Assembly: GCF_024626475.1 (NCBI RefSeq)
Contig: NZ_JANKHH010000004.1
Span: 372,001-436,000 of the forward strand
DNA: 64,000 nucleotides
Origin: Parerythrobacter lacustris
GTDB lineage: Bacteria; Pseudomonadota; Alphaproteobacteria; Sphingomonadales; Sphingomonadaceae
Direction of reading: 5' to 3'
Within the stretch, counting starts at the first letter, position 1. Every line of letters starts with the position of its first letter. The notes under the pieces are model-generated. The model worked only from the letters and a program-made list of their open reading frames with translations. It had not been told where the DNA came from and ran no database searches. Made by a program: the position numbers and the translations under genes. Positions 3,847 through 51,027 of the stretch are shown here, piece after piece.

Positions 3847-3874
3847 AAGGGCGGTCCTGCGGGGCCGCCCTTTT
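3847..3874 (+). terminator. Rho-independent terminator of rpsD
   Basis: The arms AAGGGCGG (3847-3854) and CCGCCCTT (3865-3872) enclose a ten-base loop and run into TTTT, 23 bp after the rpsD stop. Confidence 0.85.
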
Positions 3875-3943
3875 CGATTCAATTCACCGCATTTTCAGTG
3901 GGTTGGCCGGAACTGGCGGGTGGGTGAAACATTGTTTCGCCAT

Positions 3944-4102
3944 ATGCCGAGATATCGATTCATCACGCCGCACCGCCGCGGCAAGTGGTACCCCAGTTTG
4001 CAAGAAGCCCAACGATTTGCCAGCGCGATCGGCGCCGGATTTCTCGACCCTGCAGGCAGGTTTGTATTCTATCGCGGAACGGTGCTCGAGATCGGCGACT
4101 AA
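3944..4102 (+). CDS. Small basic hypothetical protein
   Basis: An ORF of 52 codons begins [18 protein letters not shown] and ends [15 protein letters not shown]. An in-frame ATG at 3920 would add 8 residues. The sequence is rich in Arg, Phe and Tyr, has no membrane segment or signal peptide, and is not low-complexity, so it reads like a real small protein. It converges with tgt, and the two stop codons overlap by four bases (4099-4102). No function can be assigned. Confidence 0.5.
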
Positions 4103-5226
4103 CCGAAGTAGTCCCGCCTAAACGCCGCTGCGAACGCCGCAAACCGCTGCTCCGCAATCGCATCGCGCATCGCCGCCATCAGTTGCTGGTAGAACGCGAT
4201 GTTGTGTTCGGTCATCAACATCGCGCCAAGTATCTCGCCGGCCTTGACCAGGTGGTGCAGATAGGCGCGGCTGTAGGTGGCGCAGGTCGGACAGGTGCAG
4301 CGCGAGTCGAGCGGCTCCTGGTCCTCTGCGAAGCGCGCGTTGCGCAGGTTGAGCGGGCCGTGCCAGGTGAAGGCCTGCCCATTGCGGCCCGAACGACTGG
4401 GCAGCACGCAATCGAACATATCGACGCCGCGCATCACAGCGCCGACCAGATCGTCGGGCTTGCCGACCCCCATCAGGTAGCGCGGCCTGTCCTGCGGCAA
4501 CTGGCCGGGCGCGAAATCGAGCGTGGCGAACATCGCCTCCTGCCCCTCGCCCACCGCAAGCCCGCCGATGGCATAGCCGTCGAATCCGATCTCGGTCAGC
4601 TTCCCCGCACTCTCCGCCCGCAGACCCTCGTCGAGCGCACCCTGCTGGATACCGAACAGCGCGGCACGGCTGGCATGCTCCCCGCCGCTGTCGAACGCGT
4701 CGCGGCTGCGTTTGGCCCAGCGCATCGACATCTCCATGCTCTTCGCGATCTCCTCGCGCGGTTGGTCGGCGCGCGGGCATTCGTCGAACGCCATCACGAT
4801 GTCGGAGCCGAGCAGGCGCTGGATTTCCATGCTGCGCTCGGGCGTGAGCATGTGCTTCGATCCGTCGATGTGGCTGCGGAATTCGACGCCATGCTCGGTC
4901 AGCTTGCGCAGGTCGGAGAGACTCATCACCTGATAACCGCCGCTGTCGGTCAGGATCGGGCGATGCCAGTTCATGAATTTGTGCAGCCCGCCGAGCCGTG
5001 CAACTCGCTCCGCCCCGGGGCGCAACATCAGGTGGTATGTGTTGCCGAGGATGATGTCCGCGCCCGTTGCGCGCACACTCTCGGGCTTCATCGCCTTGAC
5101 CGTCGCCGCCGTGCCGACCGGCATGAAAGCGGGTGTGCGAATCTCGCCGCGCTGCATGTGGATCGTGCCGGTGCGGGCCTTGCCATCGGTGGCGTGGATT
5201 TCGAAGGAGAAGCGGTCGGCGGTCAT
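4099..5226 (-). CDS. tgt: Queuine tRNA-ribosyltransferase (TGT)
   Basis: TGT exchanges guanine-34 of Asp, Asn, His and Tyr tRNAs for preQ1, the step before queA, which lies 2 kb away on the same strand. The product is 375 residues. The catalytic motifs [10 protein letters not shown] (general base Asp) and [12 protein letters not shown] (nucleophile Asp) are visible. So is the zinc site CTCPTC with the downstream His in AYLHHL. The ORF is open to 5283, but the ATG at 5226 ([10 protein letters not shown]) gives the family N-terminus. Confidence 0.97.
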
Positions 5227-40808: not shown

Positions 40809-43800
40809 TCAATGGAAGTCCCGCGATTTCGGGATGATCCGCACGTCGCGCGGATGGCCCTGGTGATAGCCGCATTCGCGATTGCCCGGCGGCGGCTCCT
40901 GCCATGGCTCGACCGGTCGGTAAGGATCGTCGCTGCCCTCGCGCAGATCGTCGCGCGGATTGGTCTTGCCCGAGGGTAGCGGCGAATTGACATGATCCGC
41001 CCGGGCCAGCGGCGCGTCGAGCATATCCTCCGACAGGCGGTAGAGTTCGTGGCTCGCATCGGTCATGTGCTGGGCGATGACGTGGATCACCTCGTCGTCG
41101 TACTCGACCCTTCCGCGAACCTCCATCAGGCGTGAACCCATCACCACACGACGTTGTTTTTCCTTGAGATCGGGCCAGACCACGAGGTTGATCACCCCGG
41201 TCTCATCCTCCAGCGTGATGAAGCACACGCCCTTGGCGCTGCCGGGCCGCTGGCGGATCAGCACCACCCCGGCCACCTGCACCGTCGAGCGGAACTTGCG
41301 ATCCCGCAGGTCGCAGGCGCGCACGAATCCGCGCTCGGCCAGCGCCGGGCGCAGGAACGCCATCGGATGCGCCTTCAGGCTGAGCCGGGTGGTCTGGTAA
41401 TCGGTGACAACCTCTTCGCTGAGCGGCATGGCTGGGAGCATGGTGGGCTTACGCTCGGCCCCCTCTTCGCGTTCCTGCGCGGCGCGGAACAGCGGCAGGT
41501 CGGGCGCGGAAACGAGGCTGCGCGCATCCCACAGGGCTTGACGGCGCGACAGCCCCAGGGAGCCGAAACAGTCTGCGCTGGCGAGCCGTTCGACATGCGC
41601 AGGCCCGATGCCCGCACGATCTCGCAGCGTCATGACGTCATCGAAAAATCCCTGATTTTCGCGGCTTTCTATCAACCGGGCGGCAACATGTTCGGGCAAG
41701 CCATCGACCTGCCGCAGGCCGAGCCGTAGGGCAATGTGCTTGTCCTGCCGCCCTTTGTCATATTCACGCGGAGACGCGGAGACGCGGAGGGAAGAAGATG
41801 GGGCGCTCGCAAAGGCGCAAAGGCGCGAAGAAGGCATGCATGCGGCGAAGCCGCCTACCCATTCGGTAGATGCTTCAATCCGTGCTGTTGCCGCTTCGCG
41901 GCAGAATTCCTTTGCGCCTTTGCGCCTTTGCGAGCGTGAAAATCTCCGCGTCTCCGCGTCTCCACGTGAATCCACAACTTCCAGCGTGCAATCCCACTGC
42001 GAATGATTGACATCGACCGGCAGCACCGTGACCCCATGCTCGCGCGCATCACGCACGATCTGCGCCGGGGCATAGAAGCCCATCGGCTGCGAATTGAGCA
42101 GCGCACAGCCGAACGCCGCCGGGAAATGGCATTTGAGCCAGCTGCTGACGTAGACGAGATGCGCGAAGCTCGCCGCGTGGCTTTCGGGGAAGCCGTATTC
42201 GCCGAACCCCCGGATCTGGTTGAAGCAGCGCTGCGCAAACTCGCGGTCGTAGCCGCGGTCGACCATCCGTTCGACCATCATGTCCTGCAGTTCGTCGACC
42301 ATCCCGCGGCTGCGGAAGGTCGCCATCGCCTTGCGCAGCCGGTTCGCCTCGAGGCTGGAGAACTTCGCCGCATCGAGCGCGATCTTCATCGCCTGTTCCT
42401 GGAAGATCGGCACGCCCAGGGTGCGCTCGAGAATGCTGCTGAGCTCGTCGGGCGGGCCGTGTTCCGGGCTTGGTGCCGGGATGATAACTTTCTCCGCCCC
42501 GCGGCGGCGCTTGAGATAAGGATGGACCATGTCGCCCTGGATCGGACCGGGGCGGACAATCGCGACCTGGATCACAAGATCGTAGAATTCCCGCGGCCGG
42601 AGCCTCGGGAGCATGTTCATCTGCGCGCGGCTCTCGACCTGGAATACGCCGAGCGAATCTCCCTTGCGCAGCATGGCGTAAGTCTCCGGGTCCTCGCGCG
42701 GGACACTGGCCAGCTCGAGCCGCCTTTCGTGATGAATTTCAAGCAGATCGAGGCATTTCCTGATGCAGGTCAGCATGCCGAGCGCAAGCACATCGACCTT
42801 GAGGATGCCCAGCGCCTCGATATCGTCCTTGTCCCATTCGATGAAGCTGCGATCGGCCATCGCCCCGTTGCCGATCGGCACGGTTTCGGTCAGCGCGCCT
42901 TCGGTGAGGATGAAACCACCGACATGCTGCGACAGATGGCGCGGCATTCCAATCATTTGCTCGGTCAGCTTGAGAACCCGGCGCAGGTGCGGATCGGTCA
43001 CGTCCATGCCGGTTTCGGCGACATGCGCCTCGCCGATCTCGCGCCCCCACCCGCCCCACACCGTCTTGGCGAGCGCGCTGGTCACATCCTCGCTCAGCCC
43101 CATCGCCTTGCCGACCTCGCGGATTGCCATGCGCGGGCGGTAATGGATCACCGTGGCGCACAGCCCGGCGCGGTGGCGGCCGTATTTGCGATAGAGGTAC
43201 TGGATCACCTCTTCGCGCCGTTCGTGCTCGAAATCGACGTCGATATCGGGCGGCTCCTTGCGTTCCTCCGAGATGAAGCGGTCGAACAGCAGCGCGTGCT
43301 TGGCCGGATCGACGCTGGTGATGCCGAGGCAATAGCAGACCGCCGAATTGGCCGCGCTCCCCCTCCCCTGGCACAGGATCGGCGGATCCTGCCCGCGCGC
43401 GAAATCGACGATATCCTTGATGGTGAGGAAATAGCGCGCGAGATCGAGCTTGGCGATCAGCGCGAGCTCGCGCACCAGCGTCGCCTGCACGCTTTCCGGC
43501 ACGCCCGAGGGATAGCGCCCCTGCGCGCCTTCGAAAGTAGACTTTTCAAGGAATTGCTGCGGCGTCATGCCGTCGGGGTAGATTTCCTCGGGGTATTCGT
43601 AGCGCAGTTCCTCGAGATCGAAGTCGCAACCATCGGCGACTGCGCGCGCCGCCGCGATGGCATGGGGCCAGCGTTCGAACAGGCGGCACATCGTCTCGGG
43701 CGATTTGAGGTAACGCTCGCCATTGCCGTGCAGCAGGTGCCCTGCCTTCGCCACGGTTGTCTTGTGGCGGATCGCGGTCATGACATCCTGCAGCGGGCGG

Positions 43801-44738
43801 CGCTGGGGCGTGTGGTAGTGGACATCGTTGGTGGCGAGCAGCGAGAGGCCGTTGGCCTTCGCCAGTGCGTCGAGCCGGTCGATCCGGGCGATATCGTCCC
43901 CGCTGTGGAGATAGCTCGCGGCCAGATGGCGCAGCGTGGGAAGCTGCGCTGTGAGATGGAGGAGGATTTCCGGAAACTTCGCCGTCAGGCTGGTTGTTTC
44001 ACGCGGAGACGCGGAGACGCGGAGATTTTCACGCTCGCAAAGGCGCAAAGGCGCAAAGGAATTCTGCCGCGAAGCGGCAACAGCACGGATTGAAGCATCT
44101 ACCGAATGGGTAGGCGGCTTCGCCGCATGCATGCCTTCTTCGCGCCTTTGCGCCTTTGCGAGCGCCCCATCTTCTTCACTCCGCGTCTCCGCGTCTCCGC
44201 GTGAAGCCTTCAGTGGAAACGGCACAACATTGCTCGGCACCGCGATGGTGAACCGCTGTTCCAGATCGCGCGGCGGTAGCAGGATCAGCTGCACATCCTC
44301 GGCATGGTCGGCCAGCATCGCCAGCGAGATGTCGCATGTGCCCTTCTCTTGCCATTCGCCGTCGAGCGTCTGCATCCGCCCGGCCGAGATCAGGCGGCAC
44401 AGGCACCCGTAGGCCGCGCGGTTCTTCGGATAGGCGAGGAAGGCCAGGCCCTCGACTGTCTCTATTCTGCAGCCGATAAGCGGTTTCAATTTCAGCGTTT
44501 TCGCCTCGGTATGAAGACGCACGACCCCGGCCATGGTGTTGGCATCGGCGATCCCGATCGAGTCATAGCCGAGCGCCCGCGCGGTCATCGCCAGATCGAC
44601 CGCATCGCTCGCCCCGCGCAGGAAGCTGAAGCAGCTGACCACCCCCAGCTCGACGAAAGGCGCGCGCGGAGGGGGATCGATCAGATCGGGATCGAGTTCG
44701 ATCCGGCGTTTGTCTGGCGTAAGCGGGGCTTCGGGCAT
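40809..44738 (-). CDS. dnaE2: Error-prone DNA polymerase DnaE2 (ImuC) with two repeat-encoded insertions
   Basis: The 1309-residue C-family polymerase does SOS mutagenic lesion bypass with ImuA and ImuB. Its PHP domain is degenerate (ELGVVSCFSFLRGAS in place of the usual LHxHS). Catalytic aspartates lie in PDIDVDFEHERR and LKVDVLALGML, and a C-terminal OB domain has GVCFITLEDETGVINLVV. Residues 179-247 and 924-992 are encoded by inverted copies of the same 208-bp repeat, and both fall in variable loops. Without them the protein would be about 1171 residues, near family length. There is no frameshift or stop. The start is one base after the udgX stop, so it is the last gene of the radical SAM-udgX-dnaE2 unit. 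Confidence 0.93.
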   Translation of the reverse strand: MPEAPLTPDKRRIELDPDLIDPPPRAPFVELGVVSCFSFLRGASDAVDLAMTARALGYDSIGIADANTMAGVVRLHTEAKTLKLKPLIGCRIETVEGLAFLAYPKNRAAYGCLCRLISAGRMQTLDGEWQEKGTCDISLAMLADHAEDVQLILLPPRDLEQRFTIAVPSNVVPFPLKASRGDAETRSEEDGALAKAQRREEGMHAAKPPTHSVDASIRAVAASRQNSFAPLRLCERENLRVSASPRETTSLTAKFPEILLHLTAQLPTLRHLAASYLHSGDDIARIDRLDALAKANGLSLLATNDVHYHTPQRRPLQDVMTAIRHKTTVAKAGHLLHGNGERYLKSPETMCRLFERWPHAIAAARAVADGCDFDLEELRYEYPEEIYPDGMTPQQFLEKSTFEGAQGRYPSGVPESVQATLVRELALIAKLDLARYFLTIKDIVDFARGQDPPILCQGRGSAANSAVCYCLGITSVDPAKHALLFDRFISEERKEPPDIDVDFEHERREEVIQYLYRKYGRHRAGLCATVIHYRPRMAIREVGKAMGLSEDVTSALAKTVWGGWGREIGEAHVAETGMDVTDPHLRRVLKLTEQMIGMPRHLSQHVGGFILTEGALTETVPIGNGAMADRSFIEWDKDDIEALGILKVDVLALGMLTCIRKCLDLLEIHHERRLELASVPREDPETYAMLRKGDSLGVFQVESRAQMNMLPRLRPREFYDLVIQVAIVRPGPIQGDMVHPYLKRRRGAEKVIIPAPSPEHGPPDELSSILERTLGVPIFQEQAMKIALDAAKFSSLEANRLRKAMATFRSRGMVDELQDMMVERMVDRGYDREFAQRCFNQIRGFGEYGFPESHAASFAHLVYVSSWLKCHFPAAFGCALLNSQPMGFYAPAQIVRDAREHGVTVLPVDVNHSQWDCTLEVVDSRGDAETRRFSRSQRRKGAKEFCREAATARIEASTEWVGGFAACMPSSRLCAFASAPSSSLRVSASPREYDKGRQDKHIALRLGLRQVDGLPEHVAARLIESRENQGFFDDVMTLRDRAGIGPAHVERLASADCFGSLGLSRRQALWDARSLVSAPDLPLFRAAQEREEGAERKPTMLPAMPLSEEVVTDYQTTRLSLKAHPMAFLRPALAERGFVRACDLRDRKFRSTVQVAGVVLIRQRPGSAKGVCFITLEDETGVINLVVWPDLKEKQRRVVMGSRLMEVRGRVEYDDEVIHVIAQHMTDASHELYRLSEDMLDAPLARADHVNSPLPSGKTNPRDDLREGSDDPYRPVEPWQEPPPGNRECGYHQGHPRDVRIIPKSRDFH
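41763..41970. repeat. 208-bp nested inverted-repeat element, copy B, in frame in dnaE2
   Basis: Terminal 26-bp arms at 41763-41788 and 41945-41970 match with one mismatch. Subterminal arms CGCTCGCAAAGGCGCAAAGG.. and their complement, and two small central hairpins (GCGGC-GAA-GCCGC type), lie inside. Apart from two bases it is the exact reverse complement of copy A. On the dnaE2 strand it encodes residues 924-992 (SRGDAETRRFSRSQ ... SLRVSASPRE). Confidence 0.95.
43998..44205. repeat. 208-bp nested inverted-repeat element, copy A, in frame in dnaE2
   Basis: Perfect 26-bp terminal inverted repeats occupy 43998-44023 and 44180-44205, with 23-bp subterminal arms at 44032-44054 and 44142-44164. 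Read on the dnaE2 strand it encodes residues 179-247 (SRGDAETRSEEDG ... NLRVSASPRE). Because the ends are inverted repeats, both orientations begin SRGDAETR and end SASPRE. Confidence 0.95.
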
Positions 44739-44739
44739 C

Positions 44740-46206
44740 TCACGCCGCCAGTTCCCGCATCCGGCTGCGGACCGCAGCAAGATCGCGCGCGAAGAGTTCC
44801 GCCTGTTGCTCTGCCGCATCGCCGTCGAGCCGCAGCAGGTAGGAAGGGTGCGCGGTGATCCACAGCTCGCTGCCATCCTCCAGCGTGGTCGGCGTGCCGC
44901 GCGCCTTCGAAATACTCACCGTCTTGCCGAGCAGGCCGCGCGCCGCGCTCGCGCCCAGGGCGAGCACCAGCTTCGGCTGCACCAGCCTGCGTTCGCTCTC
45001 GAGCCACCAGCGGCAGGTGTCGATTTCCTTCGCGGTCGGCGACTGGTGCAATCGCCGCTTGCCGCCCTGAACGATCCTGGGGACGAATTTGAAGTGCTTG
45101 ACCGCATTGGTCAGATAGGCCGCACTGCGGTCGATCCCCGCGCGCGCGAGGTGCCGATCGAGCAGCTGCCCGGCCGGGCCGACGAACGGCCGCCCCTCGA
45201 CATCCTCCTGGTCGCCCGGCTGCTCGCCGACGATCATCAGCCCCGCATCGCGTGGCCCTTCGCCCATCACCGCGCGGGTGCACAGCTCGCCGATCGGGCA
45301 CAGGCGGCATTGCGCGATCCCGCTCTCCACCTGGTCGAGCGTTTCGGGGGGCGGCAAGGTCTCGCGGCTGCCGGTCGCGACCATCTGCGATTCGCGCCTC
45401 TGCGCGCCCGCGACCAGTTCGGGGATCAGCGCCGCCTCGGGCATGTTGGCCCAGTATTTCTTCGGCATTTCCTTCAGCATCGCGCCGACCTTGAGCCGCG
45501 CAGGATTGAAGATCGAGGCATAGTATTTGCGCCACAGATCCTCGGCCGGATCGCCGCTCGGCGCGTCGGACCGTTCGGCCGGCGGGCCTTCGGACAGCAC
45601 TTTCGTATCCCAGTGCAGGCAGCCCCGGGGCGTCAGGATCGACCATTTCATATTGGCGAAGCGGCGGATGAAGAAGCCTGCGTTGGCGCGCACGATATGA
45701 TGGTCGGGCTCGAACCATGCGACATAGTGCTCGCCCGCTTCCTCCTCGTCGCTTTCGACCAGGCGGAAACGGACGAAGGCGTGCATCTTGTGGCTATCGC
45801 GCCGCACGTTCTTGTCGAGCTCCTCCGCCCGGCGCACGTCGGGATCGCTCTTGTCCTCCATCAGCCGCGGGTTGGCCTGCAACCGCCACAGCAGGCGGTA
45901 GAGCAGCGCGAACCGCTCGGGATCGGAATGGAGCGCGGCGTTCTTCGCCACCGCGAGGAAGCGGCGGCTGGCCCGCACCGGCACCGTATCGCGCGGCGGA
46001 AGCGGCAGACGCTGTGCTCCGCGGGAGGGGCCGTCCTGCGCGAACAGGTCCGACGTGCCGCCGGGTTCGATCCACGCCACCCGGTCGGGCGGAACGTCGC
46101 ACTGCACCAGCTGGCGCGCGCGTTCGCGCCAGAAGTCGAAATCGTCCGGCTCGGGCAGATGCACCGCGTAATAGGCACCGAGCGTGACGTTCTGCATGGC
46201 GGTCAT
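44740..46206 (-). CDS. UdgX-type uracil-DNA glycosylase with N-terminal DUF4130 domain
   Basis: The 488-residue protein is a two-domain fusion. Residues 1 to about 260 form a DUF4130-type domain (LLYRLLWRLQANPRLM, FIRRFANMKWSIL). The C-terminal domain is a family-4-like uracil-DNA glycosylase with iron-sulfur cysteines (QCRLCPIGELCTRA), motif GEQPGDQEDVEGRPFVGP and the UdgX loop GGKRRLHQSP. In the characterised mycobacterial UdgX the His of this loop bonds covalently to uracil-DNA. A role in repair of deaminated or damaged DNA during SOS is inferred from its place between the radical SAM gene and dnaE2. Confidence 0.92.
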   Translation of the reverse strand: MTAMQNVTLGAYYAVHLPEPDDFDFWRERARQLVQCDVPPDRVAWIEPGGTSDLFAQDGPSRGAQRLPLPPRDTVPVRASRRFLAVAKNAALHSDPERFALLYRLLWRLQANPRLMEDKSDPDVRRAEELDKNVRRDSHKMHAFVRFRLVESDEEEAGEHYVAWFEPDHHIVRANAGFFIRRFANMKWSILTPRGCLHWDTKVLSEGPPAERSDAPSGDPAEDLWRKYYASIFNPARLKVGAMLKEMPKKYWANMPEAALIPELVAGAQRRESQMVATGSRETLPPPETLDQVESGIAQCRLCPIGELCTRAVMGEGPRDAGLMIVGEQPGDQEDVEGRPFVGPAGQLLDRHLARAGIDRSAAYLTNAVKHFKFVPRIVQGGKRRLHQSPTAKEIDTCRWWLESERRLVQPKLVLALGASAARGLLGKTVSISKARGTPTTLEDGSELWITAHPSYLLRLDGDAAEQQAELFARDLAAVRSRMRELAA

Positions 46207-46226
46207 ACGCTGCTCTGGGAGAAGGG

Positions 46227-46434
46227 TTCACGCGGAGACGCGGAGATGCGGAGTTTTTTGCGCTCGCAAAGGCGCAAAGGCGCAAAGAAGTTCGACCGCA
46301 AAGCGGCCATATCTCCTCTCGAAACTTCACCAGAATGAGGAAGCGGCTTCGCCGTATGCGTGCATTCTTCGCGCCTTTGCGCCTTTGCGAGCGAAACCCC
46401 TCTTTTCCTCCGCGTCTCCGCGTCTCCGCGCGAT
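46227..46434. repeat. 208-bp nested inverted-repeat element, copy C, between udgX and the radical SAM gene
   Basis: It has the same length and layout as copies A and B, and the same orientation as A. It is diverged in the centre and in the arms (for example GATGCGG and GCGCGAT changes). It fills nearly all of the 238-bp intergenic gap. On the minus strand it is still open in one frame and translates to a recognisable relative of the copy A peptide; the plus-strand frame has a stop. Confidence 0.93.
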
Positions 46435-46444
46435 CCCCACCCGC

Positions 46445-47701
46445 TCATGCCGCGAACAGCTCCAGCTGTTCCTGTTTCGGTGCAAGCAGGCGGCGCAGGT
46501 CCGCGCGGTCGGTCAGCAGGGTCGGACGCCAGTCGGTGGTGCAGATGAACGGGCGGACCTTGGCGATCGACTGGGTCAGCCGCGCGACGTCGTCCAGCCG
46601 CAGCGAATGATGACGTCGTGCCGCAATGATCCGGTTTACCGCCGTGACGCCAAGCCCCGGCACGCGCAGCAATTGTTCGCGGCTGGCGCGGTTGACGTCG
46701 AGCGGGAAGCTGTCGCGGAACTTGAGCGCCCAGGCGAGCTTGGGATCGATGTCGAGCGGCAGCATGCCGTCATCCCCCGCCGCCTGCATGACTTCGCCCG
46801 GCTGGTAGCCGTAAAACCGCATCAGCCAGTCCGACTGGTAGAGCCGGTGCTCGCGAATCAGCGGCGGGCGCTTCAATGGCAATACCGCGCTGGCATCGGG
46901 GATCGGCGAGAAGGCGGAGTAATAGACCCGCCGCAGCCGGAAGCCGTCATACAGCCGGCTCGCCTTGCCGACGATATCGGCGTCGCTCGCCCCGTCCGCG
47001 CCGACGATCATCTGGGTCGACTGACCCGCCGGGGCGAAGCGCGGGGCGTGGCGGAACCGCTTCTTCGCATCCTTCGCCTCGACGATGTCGGCCTTGGTCT
47101 TCGCCATCGCGCCTTCGATCTGGCGCGCGCTCTTGTCGGGCGCGAGGCGGGTCAGCCCGCTGTCGGTCGGCAGCTCGACATTGATCGAGACCCGGTCGGC
47201 ATAGAGCCCCGCCTGATAGACCAGTTCCGGGTCCGCCTCGGGGATGGTCTTGAGATGGATATAGCCGCGGAAATCGTATTCCTCGCGCAGGATGCGCGCG
47301 GTCTCTACCAGCTGCTCCATCGTGTGGTTCGAGCTCTTGACGATGCCCGAGGAGAGGAACAGCCCCTCGATATAGTTGCGGCGGTAGAAGGCGATGGTGA
47401 GATCGGCCACCTCCTGCGGGCTGAACCGGGCACGGCGCACGTTCGAGCTCTTGCGGTTGATGCAGTAATGGCAGTCGAACACGCAGTGGTTGGTCAGCAG
47501 GATCTTGAGCAGGCTGATGCACCGCCCGTCGGGCGCATAGGCATGGCAGATGCCCATCCCCTCGGTCGAGCCGATGCCGCCCCTGCCCTTTGGTCCACCC
47601 AGCGAGTTCTTCTTCGCCGTGCCGGACGATGCGCAGGAGGCATCGTATTTCGCCGCATCGGCCAGGATGCCGAGCTTCTCTATCGTCGATAACTGACCCA
47701 T
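46445..47701 (-). CDS. Putative DNA modification/repair radical SAM protein
   Basis: The 418-residue protein has the radical SAM cluster motif in TNHCVFDCHYCINRKSSN (CxxxCxxC). It ends with a helix-hairpin-helix DNA-binding motif, VNRASREQLLRVPGLG. It matches the family annotated as a putative DNA repair radical SAM protein (TIGR03916 type), which is known to accompany DUF4130/UDG proteins, as here. The reaction is unknown. ATG 47701 (MGQLSTIEKLGILAD) is preceded by a LexA box, making it the first gene of the SOS unit with udgX and dnaE2. Confidence 0.9.
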   Translation of the reverse strand: MGQLSTIEKLGILADAAKYDASCASSGTAKKNSLGGPKGRGGIGSTEGMGICHAYAPDGRCISLLKILLTNHCVFDCHYCINRKSSNVRRARFSPQEVADLTIAFYRRNYIEGLFLSSGIVKSSNHTMEQLVETARILREEYDFRGYIHLKTIPEADPELVYQAGLYADRVSINVELPTDSGLTRLAPDKSARQIEGAMAKTKADIVEAKDAKKRFRHAPRFAPAGQSTQMIVGADGASDADIVGKASRLYDGFRLRRVYYSAFSPIPDASAVLPLKRPPLIREHRLYQSDWLMRFYGYQPGEVMQAAGDDGMLPLDIDPKLAWALKFRDSFPLDVNRASREQLLRVPGLGVTAVNRIIAARRHHSLRLDDVARLTQSIAKVRPFICTTDWRPTLLTDRADLRRLLAPKQEQLELFAA

Positions 47702-47703
47702 TT

Positions 47704-47718
47704 GTTCTTTATATGTTC
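47704..47718 (-). promoter_or_regulatory. LexA box of the radical SAM-udgX-dnaE2 unit
   Basis: GTTC-TTTATAT-GTTC is an exact alphaproteobacterial SOS operator (GTTC-N7-GTTC). It lies two bases before the ATG. Read on the minus strand a TATAAA sequence inside the box could be the -10 element, which would place the transcript start at or next to the start codon. Confidence 0.88.
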
Positions 47719-47840
47719 CTGCTGCTGATTCCGCCAGCTTTTTCGCGCGCAGACACCGCTCTCGCACGAGTGGCAGCGATTGACGGAACGCTCGCGCGTC
47801 ACCCGCATTCCAAAGGGACAAACAAGATCCAGGAGACACC

Positions 47841-48668
47841 ATGCCCAATTTCATGACCCGCGACGGCACTTCCATACGCTACAAGGAACTGGGCGAAGGC
47901 CGACCCGTCATCCTGATTCACGGATGGCCGCTTTCCGGCGACAGCTGGGACGCAGTCATGATGGCTCTGGCCGACAATGACATGCGTGCCGTCGCCTACG
48001 ACCGCCGCGGTTTCGGGCGCAGCGACCATGCCCCGTCCGGTTATGATTACGATACCTTCAGCGACGATCTGGCAGACCTGATTGGCTATCTCGAGCTGAC
48101 CGACAACATCGGCGTGGCCGGCTTCTCCATGGGGGGCGGCGAGATCGCTCGCTATATGAGCCGTCATGGCGGAAAGGGAGTGACCGCTGCGGCGCTGATC
48201 AGTTCGGTGGTGCCCTACATGCTAAAGACGGACGACAATCCGGATGGCGTGCCGCAAGAGACCTTCGACACGATGACGAAAGGTATGAAAGACGATTTTC
48301 GCGCCTTCTTCACCGGCTTCTTCGAGGATTTTTACGGTGTCGGCGGACCGGGCACCCAAGTCTCCGAGGAGGAGCGTCACTGGGCATGGCTGACCGCGAT
48401 GAAGAGCTCGCAATACGCAACACTGCAATCGGCAGCCGCCTTTGCATCTACCGACTTCCGACCGGACTTGCCGCATTTCAAAGTTCCGACGCTGGTGGTC
48501 CATGGCACGAACGACCAGACCGTGCCGATCGACGCTACGGGTCGCGCCGTGGCCGAGCAGGTCGAAGGCGCTACTTTGATCGAATACGAGGACGAGCCGC
48601 ACGCCGTTTTCGCAACGGTCACGGATCGGCTGGCTGACGATCTGGTAGATTTCTTCTCCAACAACTGA
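47841..48668 (+). CDS. Alpha/beta hydrolase, non-heme chloroperoxidase-like
   Basis: The 275-residue protein has the classic order of alpha/beta hydrolase motifs. These are the oxyanion region LIHGWPLSGDSWD, AYDRRGFGRSDHA, nucleophile elbow GFSMGGGE, catalytic Asp in VVHGTNDQTVPID and catalytic His in EDEPHAVFA. It is closest to cofactor-free haloperoxidase/perhydrolase-type esterases; the physiological substrate is unknown. AGGAGA precedes the ATG. It stands alone between the two divergent-oriented SOS units and shows no SOS link of its own beyond sharing the intergenic region with a LexA box. Confidence 0.87.
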   Translation: MPNFMTRDGTSIRYKELGEGRPVILIHGWPLSGDSWDAVMMALADNDMRAVAYDRRGFGRSDHAPSGYDYDTFSDDLADLIGYLELTDNIGVAGFSMGGGEIARYMSRHGGKGVTAAALISSVVPYMLKTDDNPDGVPQETFDTMTKGMKDDFRAFFTGFFEDFYGVGGPGTQVSEEERHWAWLTAMKSSQYATLQSAAAFASTDFRPDLPHFKVPTLVVHGTNDQTVPIDATGRAVAEQVEGATLIEYEDEPHAVFATVTDRLADDLVDFFSNN

Positions 48669-51012: not shown

Positions 51013-51027
51013 GTTCCGCTTATGTTC
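51013..51027 (-). promoter_or_regulatory. LexA box of imuA-imuB
   Basis: GTTC-CGCTTAT-GTTC, an exact GTTC-N7-GTTC operator, ends two bases before the imuA ATG. On the minus strand TTGCAA-N17-CATAAG overlaps it and would start transcription at about the start codon. The geometry is the same as at 47704-47718. Confidence 0.88.

Follow-up and report, generated by a model that had tools for sequence, protein, structure and literature searches.

Palindromic elements in the dnaE2 gene

The sequence analyzed here, referred to as the window, is a stretch of 64,000 nt from Parerythrobacter lacustris (assembly GCF_024626475.1, contig NZ_JANKHH010000004.1, positions 372,001-436,000 of the forward strand); all feature coordinates count from its start. 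It carries three copies of a palindromic element. Two of them lie in frame within dnaE2, which encodes an error-prone DNA polymerase, and the third is outside any gene (Table 1). The ends of these elements match the flanks of genes encoding GxxExxY, a nuclease family named only by its motif. The dnaE2 assignment is based on the family model NF004225 (1366.6 bits against a cut-off of 939), and the catalytic-region motifs PPDIDVDF (residue 496) and KVDVLAL (residue 647) are present. An earlier note, made from the sequence alone, had described three copies of exactly 208 bp with terminal inverted repeats, inner arms and small central hairpins, two of them read through as DnaE2 residues. Coordinates, lengths and structure were all confirmed, and the frame is unbroken across the 1309 amino acids.

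Table 1. Palindromic elements, their arms and the surrounding genes in the window
Feature	Position	Strand	Remarks
Element copy in dnaE2 (spot 1)	43998..44205		approximately residues 179-247, variable stretch past the PHP domain match
Element copy in dnaE2, inverted (spot 2)	41763..41970		identical to the copy at 43998..44205 at 206/208 positions; approximately residues 924-992, ahead of the helix-hairpin-helix domain
Third element copy, intergenic	46227..46434		about 81% identical; takes up most of the intergenic space separating the UdgX-family and radical-SAM genes
Outer arm pairs, ACGCGGAG octamers	43998-44024/44179-44205; 41763-41789/41944-41970; 46227-46253/46408-46434		
Inner arm pairs, CGCAAAGG octamers	44033-44058/44138-44163; 41805-41830/41910-41935; 46262-46287/46367-46392		
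dnaE2 (error-prone DNA polymerase III alpha, 1309 aa), containing both in-frame element copies	40809..44738	-	NF004225
UdgX-family uracil-DNA binding protein fused to a TIGR03915 domain	44740..46206	-	TIGR03914, TIGR03915; upstream of dnaE2, same direction
Radical-SAM putative DNA repair protein	46445..47875	-	TIGR03916; likely start Met59 at 47701
GTTC-N7-GTTC, candidate LexA box	47704..47718	+	immediately precedes the probable start of the unit (radical-SAM gene)

Each outer arm consists of three ACGCGGAG octamers opposite their complement, with 26/27, 27/27 and 24/27 bases paired in the three copies. The inner arms of 26 bp are built from CGCAAAGG-type octamers, the center of the element holds short GCGGCGAAGCCGC-like hairpins, and the ends read TTCACG...CGTGAA. 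The terminal inverted arms thus consist of tandem octamers with the approximate consensus NCRCNNAG. The third copy matches copy 1 at 169 of 208 positions. When folded as single-stranded DNA, one dnaE2 copy reaches -91.7 kcal/mol, compared to -45.4 kcal/mol (standard deviation 3.5) for 200 shuffled sequences, corresponding to a z-score of -13.4. The stop codons per frame in the two dnaE2 copies number 2,0,1 / 2,0,1 and 2,0,1 / 3,0,1, so that exactly one frame is open on each strand; to this extent the element is indeed open on both strands, as the note had stated. Both insertions also share the codon phase that it had pointed out. We rejected the common phase as a sign of target choice, however, because one open frame per strand leaves no alternative.

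Insertion into dnaE2 and other sites

Genomes are labeled with G numbers, G000 being the genome under study. Both DnaE2 segments are missing in G001 and G002, two relatives from the same genus in which the core of the protein is about 90% identical, as found by the alignment to close relatives that had been named beforehand as a check. These data support the view that repeat elements have been turned into coding sequence twice in dnaE2. At spot 2, a reading of the alignment indicates that G001 and G002 have six codons (DAATDC) that are missing from G000, and therefore the insertion was accompanied or followed by a small loss.

The DNA of the element was searched in 59 genomes including G000. 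Matches were found in four of them, clear in G000, G022 and G028 and confined to a single weak hit in G045; the search does not capture elements built of different octamers, for example those in G034. Nine other element sites of G000 were queried and seven could be aligned. For each of these seven, at least one relative has an empty site, with flanking genes that often nearly abut, and some relatives carry other sequence at these places. For instance, the site at C8:120k is plainly empty in G034 only, and in G001 it is filled by a different, arm-less sequence of about 650 bp.

Altogether we identified at least 22 elements in G000 by BLAST and arm patterns, of which four contain a GxxExxY gene and 18 are gene-less. 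Copies with short arms may be missing from this count, and one element (C10:23k) was included on one clear arm. A reading of the surrounding frames places 16 of the 18 gene-less copies between genes. The genome-wide search, another check named beforehand, thus yielded two intragenic copies, both in dnaE2. A third in-gene candidate at C1:224k was rejected, since the gene with a thiamine-monophosphate-synthase domain ends at the element edge. The arm at C10:23900-23980 (L191) is located upstream of the apparent start of a gene that we take to be ssb.

Recurrent landing loops in DnaE2

Among the insertion spots in 30 aligned DnaE2 proteins, the two element sites are the longest, with extra residues in 15 and 16 of the 30 rows, which bears out the placement of both insertions in variable loops. 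The same two spots are filled in six other genera by other repeat-like inserts, also in frame, and the two loops are therefore recurrent landing places for repeats. In G034, a member of another genus, both spots are occupied by palindromes of another kind, whose GCAGAGAC arms resemble those of its own GxxExxY gene. Spot 1 contains a PGLDPGS-type palindrome in G004 and G008 and a related palindrome in G027. Spot 2 contains a CGTCATTCCCGCG...-type repeat in G016 (L033), as well as further stretches in G027 and G007 that are palindromic by eye. Among all fetched loci, strict patterns matched the PGLDPGS type twice (once outside the dnaE2 loci) and the CGTCATTCCCGCG type four times (three outside the dnaE2 loci, including one in G000, L187), while the reversed controls gave no match for either. 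With so few strict copies, these types are taken as repeats partly in view of PMC3733652, which describes CGTC repeats, mostly from alphaproteobacteria.

When aligned to the Pol III alpha chain of the solved structure 5fku, presumably that of E. coli, spot 2 maps to the short segment from residue 819 to 833 of that chain, at the junction of the finger and helix-hairpin-helix regions; spot 1 comes after the PHP match. The alignment of DnaE2 proteins has two more insertion spots past residues 1028 and 1258 of the G000 protein, where inserts in some relatives reach 69 and 42 residues, respectively. DnaE2 can be regarded as a natural assay of which protein loops accept repeat DNA. The ratio of nonsynonymous to synonymous substitution rates (dN/dS) of dnaE2 without the inserts is 0.085 and 0.154 against the same-genus genes (dS near 1.0 and 0.6), compared to 0.086 between G001 and G002; with dS of 0.6 to 1.05 in these comparisons, the estimates are rough. 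Outside the inserts dnaE2 is under purifying selection, which says nothing on events after a recent insertion.

GxxExxY genes and their octamer arms

Inverted octamer arms bracket all four TIGR04256 (GxxExxY) genes of G000. Three further sets of loci were analyzed: the 80 best hits from a scan of one genome per species, 40 genes from across the order, and 30 loci of a distant proteobacterial family. Both arms were found at 76 of the 80 best loci, with none in 3680 random controls, and at 34 of the 40 order-wide genes, where this test had no drawable control. The distant family showed both arms at 19 of 30 loci (control 9/2156); the unit spacing there, as judged by eye, is 8, 9 or 10 bp. A score-based test placed 66 of the 80 best loci above the 99% mark of 1444 controls, 34 of the 40 order-wide genes above that of 1466 controls, which were drawn from other loci, and 19 of the 30 distant loci above that of 296 controls. 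On plasmids, GxxExxY genes occurred in eight of 72,556 records, seven of them from other phyla, and plasmid spread of the family was accordingly rejected. Inspection of these records by eye revealed arms on both sides in Sphingomonas and Bernardetia and a short inverted repeat in Treponema. In the Fusobacteria and Prevotella plasmids (L254 and L258), the flanks appear similar in direct, not inverted, orientation.

Strict arms are present at 67 of the 80 loci, and there the left and right arms covary, agreeing at 14.31 of 15 bases compared to 12.92 for shuffled partners, a value reached in none of 5000 shuffles. Similarity of the arms correlates with similarity of GxxExxY when that of the neighboring FabG is controlled (53 loci; partial correlation 0.20, reached by 10 of 999 permutations). 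The reverse comparison, of arms and FabG with GxxExxY controlled, gives 0.006 (460 of 999 permutations). Thus, the arm sequence follows the GxxExxY protein and not its neighbor. GxxExxY identity itself follows FabG identity (61 loci, rho 0.44). In locus L141, with the gene at 3852-4199, both arms deviate alike from the consensus (AG to CG in the octamer), matched on the two sides. A GxxExxY gene with arms, close in sequence to those of sphingomonads, also occurs in a metagenome assembly labeled Verrucomicrobia (L153, 10001-10351), perhaps by transfer or mis-binning.

The gene recurs at few genomic places. In G000, an armed copy at C9:128837-129289 (L016) lies between fabD and fabG, as in many sphingomonads (L259 and many of L077-L156), and both genes are annotated next to the GxxExxY gene in one database record. 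This interval is empty in G002, G034, G027, G008 and G004. In G001 (L300, C1:2126100-2127100) it contains a different open frame of about 190 residues without octamer arms; the place therefore accepts other insertions. The second recurrent place is flanked by what we take to be saccharopine-dehydrogenase-like and carboxynorspermidine-decarboxylase-like genes.

Co-occurrence of arms and gene was evaluated with a triple-octamer pattern in 197 Sphingomonadales genomes, without regard to shared ancestry. Of the 35 genomes that have the gene, 30 show the pattern, compared to 23 of the 162 that lack it. After subtraction of four hits per gene copy, 15 of 35 and 14 of 162 genomes, respectively, keep at least two hits (p = 5e-6). 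GxxExxY is a candidate mobilizing enzyme for a repeat type present in about a quarter of the sampled Sphingomonadales genomes (53/197). Many or some octamer arms without a TIGR04256 match were observed in G280, G410, G003 and G022; these may be relics or may point to another mobilizing enzyme. A genome-specific match between the arms of gene-bearing and gene-less copies was also considered and not retained.

The GxxExxY protein

The protein belongs to TIGR04256/PF13366, with a PF13366 match of 132.4 bits. Residues D62, E72 and K74 are invariant in 35 GxxExxY sequences and form the D...ExK signature of PD-(D/E)XK nucleases; the structure model (predicted local distance difference test, pLDDT, 94.1) likewise shows a PD-(D/E)XK nuclease fold. 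Its best fold match is Cas4 SSO0001 (Z 9.7, Foldseek E 1.1e-3). A restriction-endonuclease-like protein follows at Z 8.4, and Holliday junction resolvases reach at most Z 7.2, in a range under 8 that is not decisive. No solved structure related in sequence was found at E up to 1. A defense library gave weak matches alone, to Cas4 and to a PDDEXK protein associated with reverse transcriptase (RT). No named transposase was among the 50 VIA-align matches listed, which excludes nothing. Nucleases of the Cas4 and resolvase type act on ends, branches or hairpins, and such habits would suit a palindromic substrate for GxxExxY, as judged from its modeled fold. Compared to these nucleases, GxxExxY is a minimal core of 117 residues flanked by octamer arms. 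One paper names the family in a passage on reverse transcriptases. Literature linking GxxExxY to repeats was absent among the matches listed, with subscription journals and preprints outside the coverage. The association with palindromes provides a testable function for this nuclease family.

Proposed mobilization and alternative explanations

We consider it probable, at roughly 60%, that the 208-bp elements belong, as non-autonomous and gene-less copies, to a family of mobile repeats able to form hairpins, which GxxExxY would recognize and spread. The model is the relation between repetitive extragenic palindromic (REP) sequences and REP-associated tyrosine transposases (RAYTs). In both cases a stable gene flanked by the repeat is accompanied by many dispersed copies, and it is on account of this likeness that GxxExxY is proposed to spread the palindromes. 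The nuclease would most likely recognize the arms or the folded hairpin and help the repeats to be copied to other sites, the role proposed for RAYT transposases with REPs. Most surviving insertions would then be those between genes. The two dnaE2 copies may have survived because they landed in two flexible loops and in the one open frame per strand, by which the polymerase would have gained about 69 residues twice, apparently with its function kept. More tentative, at somewhat less than even odds, is the proposal that a class of mobile repeat systems not yet described has GxxExxY as its enzyme. Such a Cas4- or resolvase-like nuclease would have inverted arms made of arrayed 8 to 10-bp units as its substrate and would disperse gene-less palindromes through bacterial genomes, occasionally into protein genes such as dnaE2.

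Several observations weigh against mobilization by GxxExxY. Movement of the repeats was not observed, and no target-site duplication was seen at the seven aligned sites, where relatives are too diverged at the edges. Gene-less and gene-bearing copies have the arms alone in common and not the interiors, and a genome-by-genome match of their arms is weak (8 of 120 permutations as good, in five genomes). The gene-bearing elements appear mostly resident, at least 46 of 80 being located in the fabD-fabG interval and 12 of 80 in that of the second gene pair, and the gene of G028 is adjacent to an element instead of enclosed by it. By a strict test both arms were present at one of the eight plasmid-borne genes. 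Arm matches occur without the gene in the 23 of 162 genomes mentioned above, some of them with many (27 in G280, 25 in G410 and 14 in G003), five of 35 genomes with the gene have no triple arm, and the co-occurrence statistics ignore shared ancestry. No fold match of GxxExxY in Foldseek reached E 0.001. Lastly, the Y1 transposase of the RAYT family (Y1_Tnp, PF01797) is present in four of 11 other element-bearing genomes tested. It is absent in the remaining seven and has no match in G000, where RAYT/IS200 was accordingly rejected as the mobilizer.

The strongest alternative, which we regard as unlikely, is that the palindromes are ordinary miniature inverted-repeat transposable elements (MITEs) moved in trans by another transposase, with GxxExxY as a passenger between the arms. 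As in MITEs, the 208-bp elements are short, gene-less and mostly intergenic, and their terminal inverted repeats are shared with a longer gene-bearing element. A passenger role would also agree with a nuclease of no known transposase function, with arm-rich genomes that lack it and with the fixed places of most gene-bearing elements. On the other hand, the link between arms and gene recurs in all three locus sets, the arms track the GxxExxY protein, and the RAYT/IS200 family is absent in G000, Y1 being the sole transposase family searched. Unlike MITEs, the elements further contain internal hairpins and a nested second pair of arms in place of a gene remnant; no target duplication was seen at the seven sites with diverged edges, and no transposase partner is recognized.

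We find it still less probable that the palindromes are not regularly mobile but are selected structural DNA or RNA elements, such as terminators, mRNA stabilizers or nuclease targets, which rare recombination has dispersed and on which GxxExxY would act as a housekeeping hairpin nuclease. The very stable fold, the covarying arms and the intergenic position of 16 of the 18 gene-less copies would all be expected of such elements. However, dispersed copies and empty sites in relatives point to spread within the lineage, as does the lack of an element DNA match in 55 of the 58 other genomes (a search that misses other octamers), and the coding inserts in dnaE2 require insertion. A recombination switch, in which the inverted, 99% identical copies flip the 2-kb core of dnaE2 and turn the mutagenic polymerase off and on, has a very small chance of being correct. 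Recombination or conversion would maintain the 206/208 identity of two opposed copies within one gene, but recent duplication explains it equally well, and the next closest copy, the third, is also nearby, which fits local spread. The inverted form of dnaE2 was not seen, and reads were not searched for it.

The reading of both segments as ancient, conserved portions of DnaE2 is hardly credible and was refuted as stated: G034 has repeat-derived inserts at both same spots, with similar flanks at spot 1 (VPFP ... RETTSLTA), but these differ in their arms and, by eye, in their interiors, both same-genus genomes and other aligned relatives lack the segments, and a near copy of the element, the third, sits outside dnaE2. 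Because the residues beside the insert are alike in G000 and G034, spot 1 may go back to an older shared insertion that was later turned over.

Comparison with known repeat systems

In-frame palindromic inserts are already known from Rickettsia, and REPs from repair genes; the elements described here belong to a different repeat family. PMC10969869 describes Rickettsia palindromic elements (RPEs) of about 150 bp that are inserted in frame as an extra protein segment. The comparison with Rickettsia made in the note stands with respect to this mode of insertion, a palindromic repeat read in frame within a protein gene. It fails with respect to the type of element, which here is associated with GxxExxY. 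RPEs differ in sequence and host group and are reported from many genes, whereas dnaE2 is the only gene affected among the 18 gene-less copies found. According to PMC3733652, the RPE repeats of R. conorii end in CGTC. The 208-bp elements end in TTCACGCGG and have no CGTC at one end.

The same 2013 paper (PMC3733652) reports REPs inside repair genes and includes error-prone polymerases encoded by dnaE2 among the REP-tagged proteins. The note knew of no described case in an SOS polymerase of this group; repeats inside DnaE2 are thus not without precedent, and CGTC-tagged REPs share their presence inside dnaE2 with the elements studied here. The two systems, also termed REPtrons in the case of REP and RAYT, differ in the gene flanked by the repeat, which is a PD-(D/E)XK nuclease and not a tyrosine transposase, in the tandem octamers that make up the arms, and in the lack of a Y1 transposase in G000.

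Candidate regulatory motif of the gene unit

The motif GTTC-N7-GTTC before the likely start of the unit has a form that we take to be that of the alphaproteobacterial LexA box. Three matches were found in the window compared to 1.55 expected by chance, which alone is a weak indication. One other such box is located at window positions 51013-51027.

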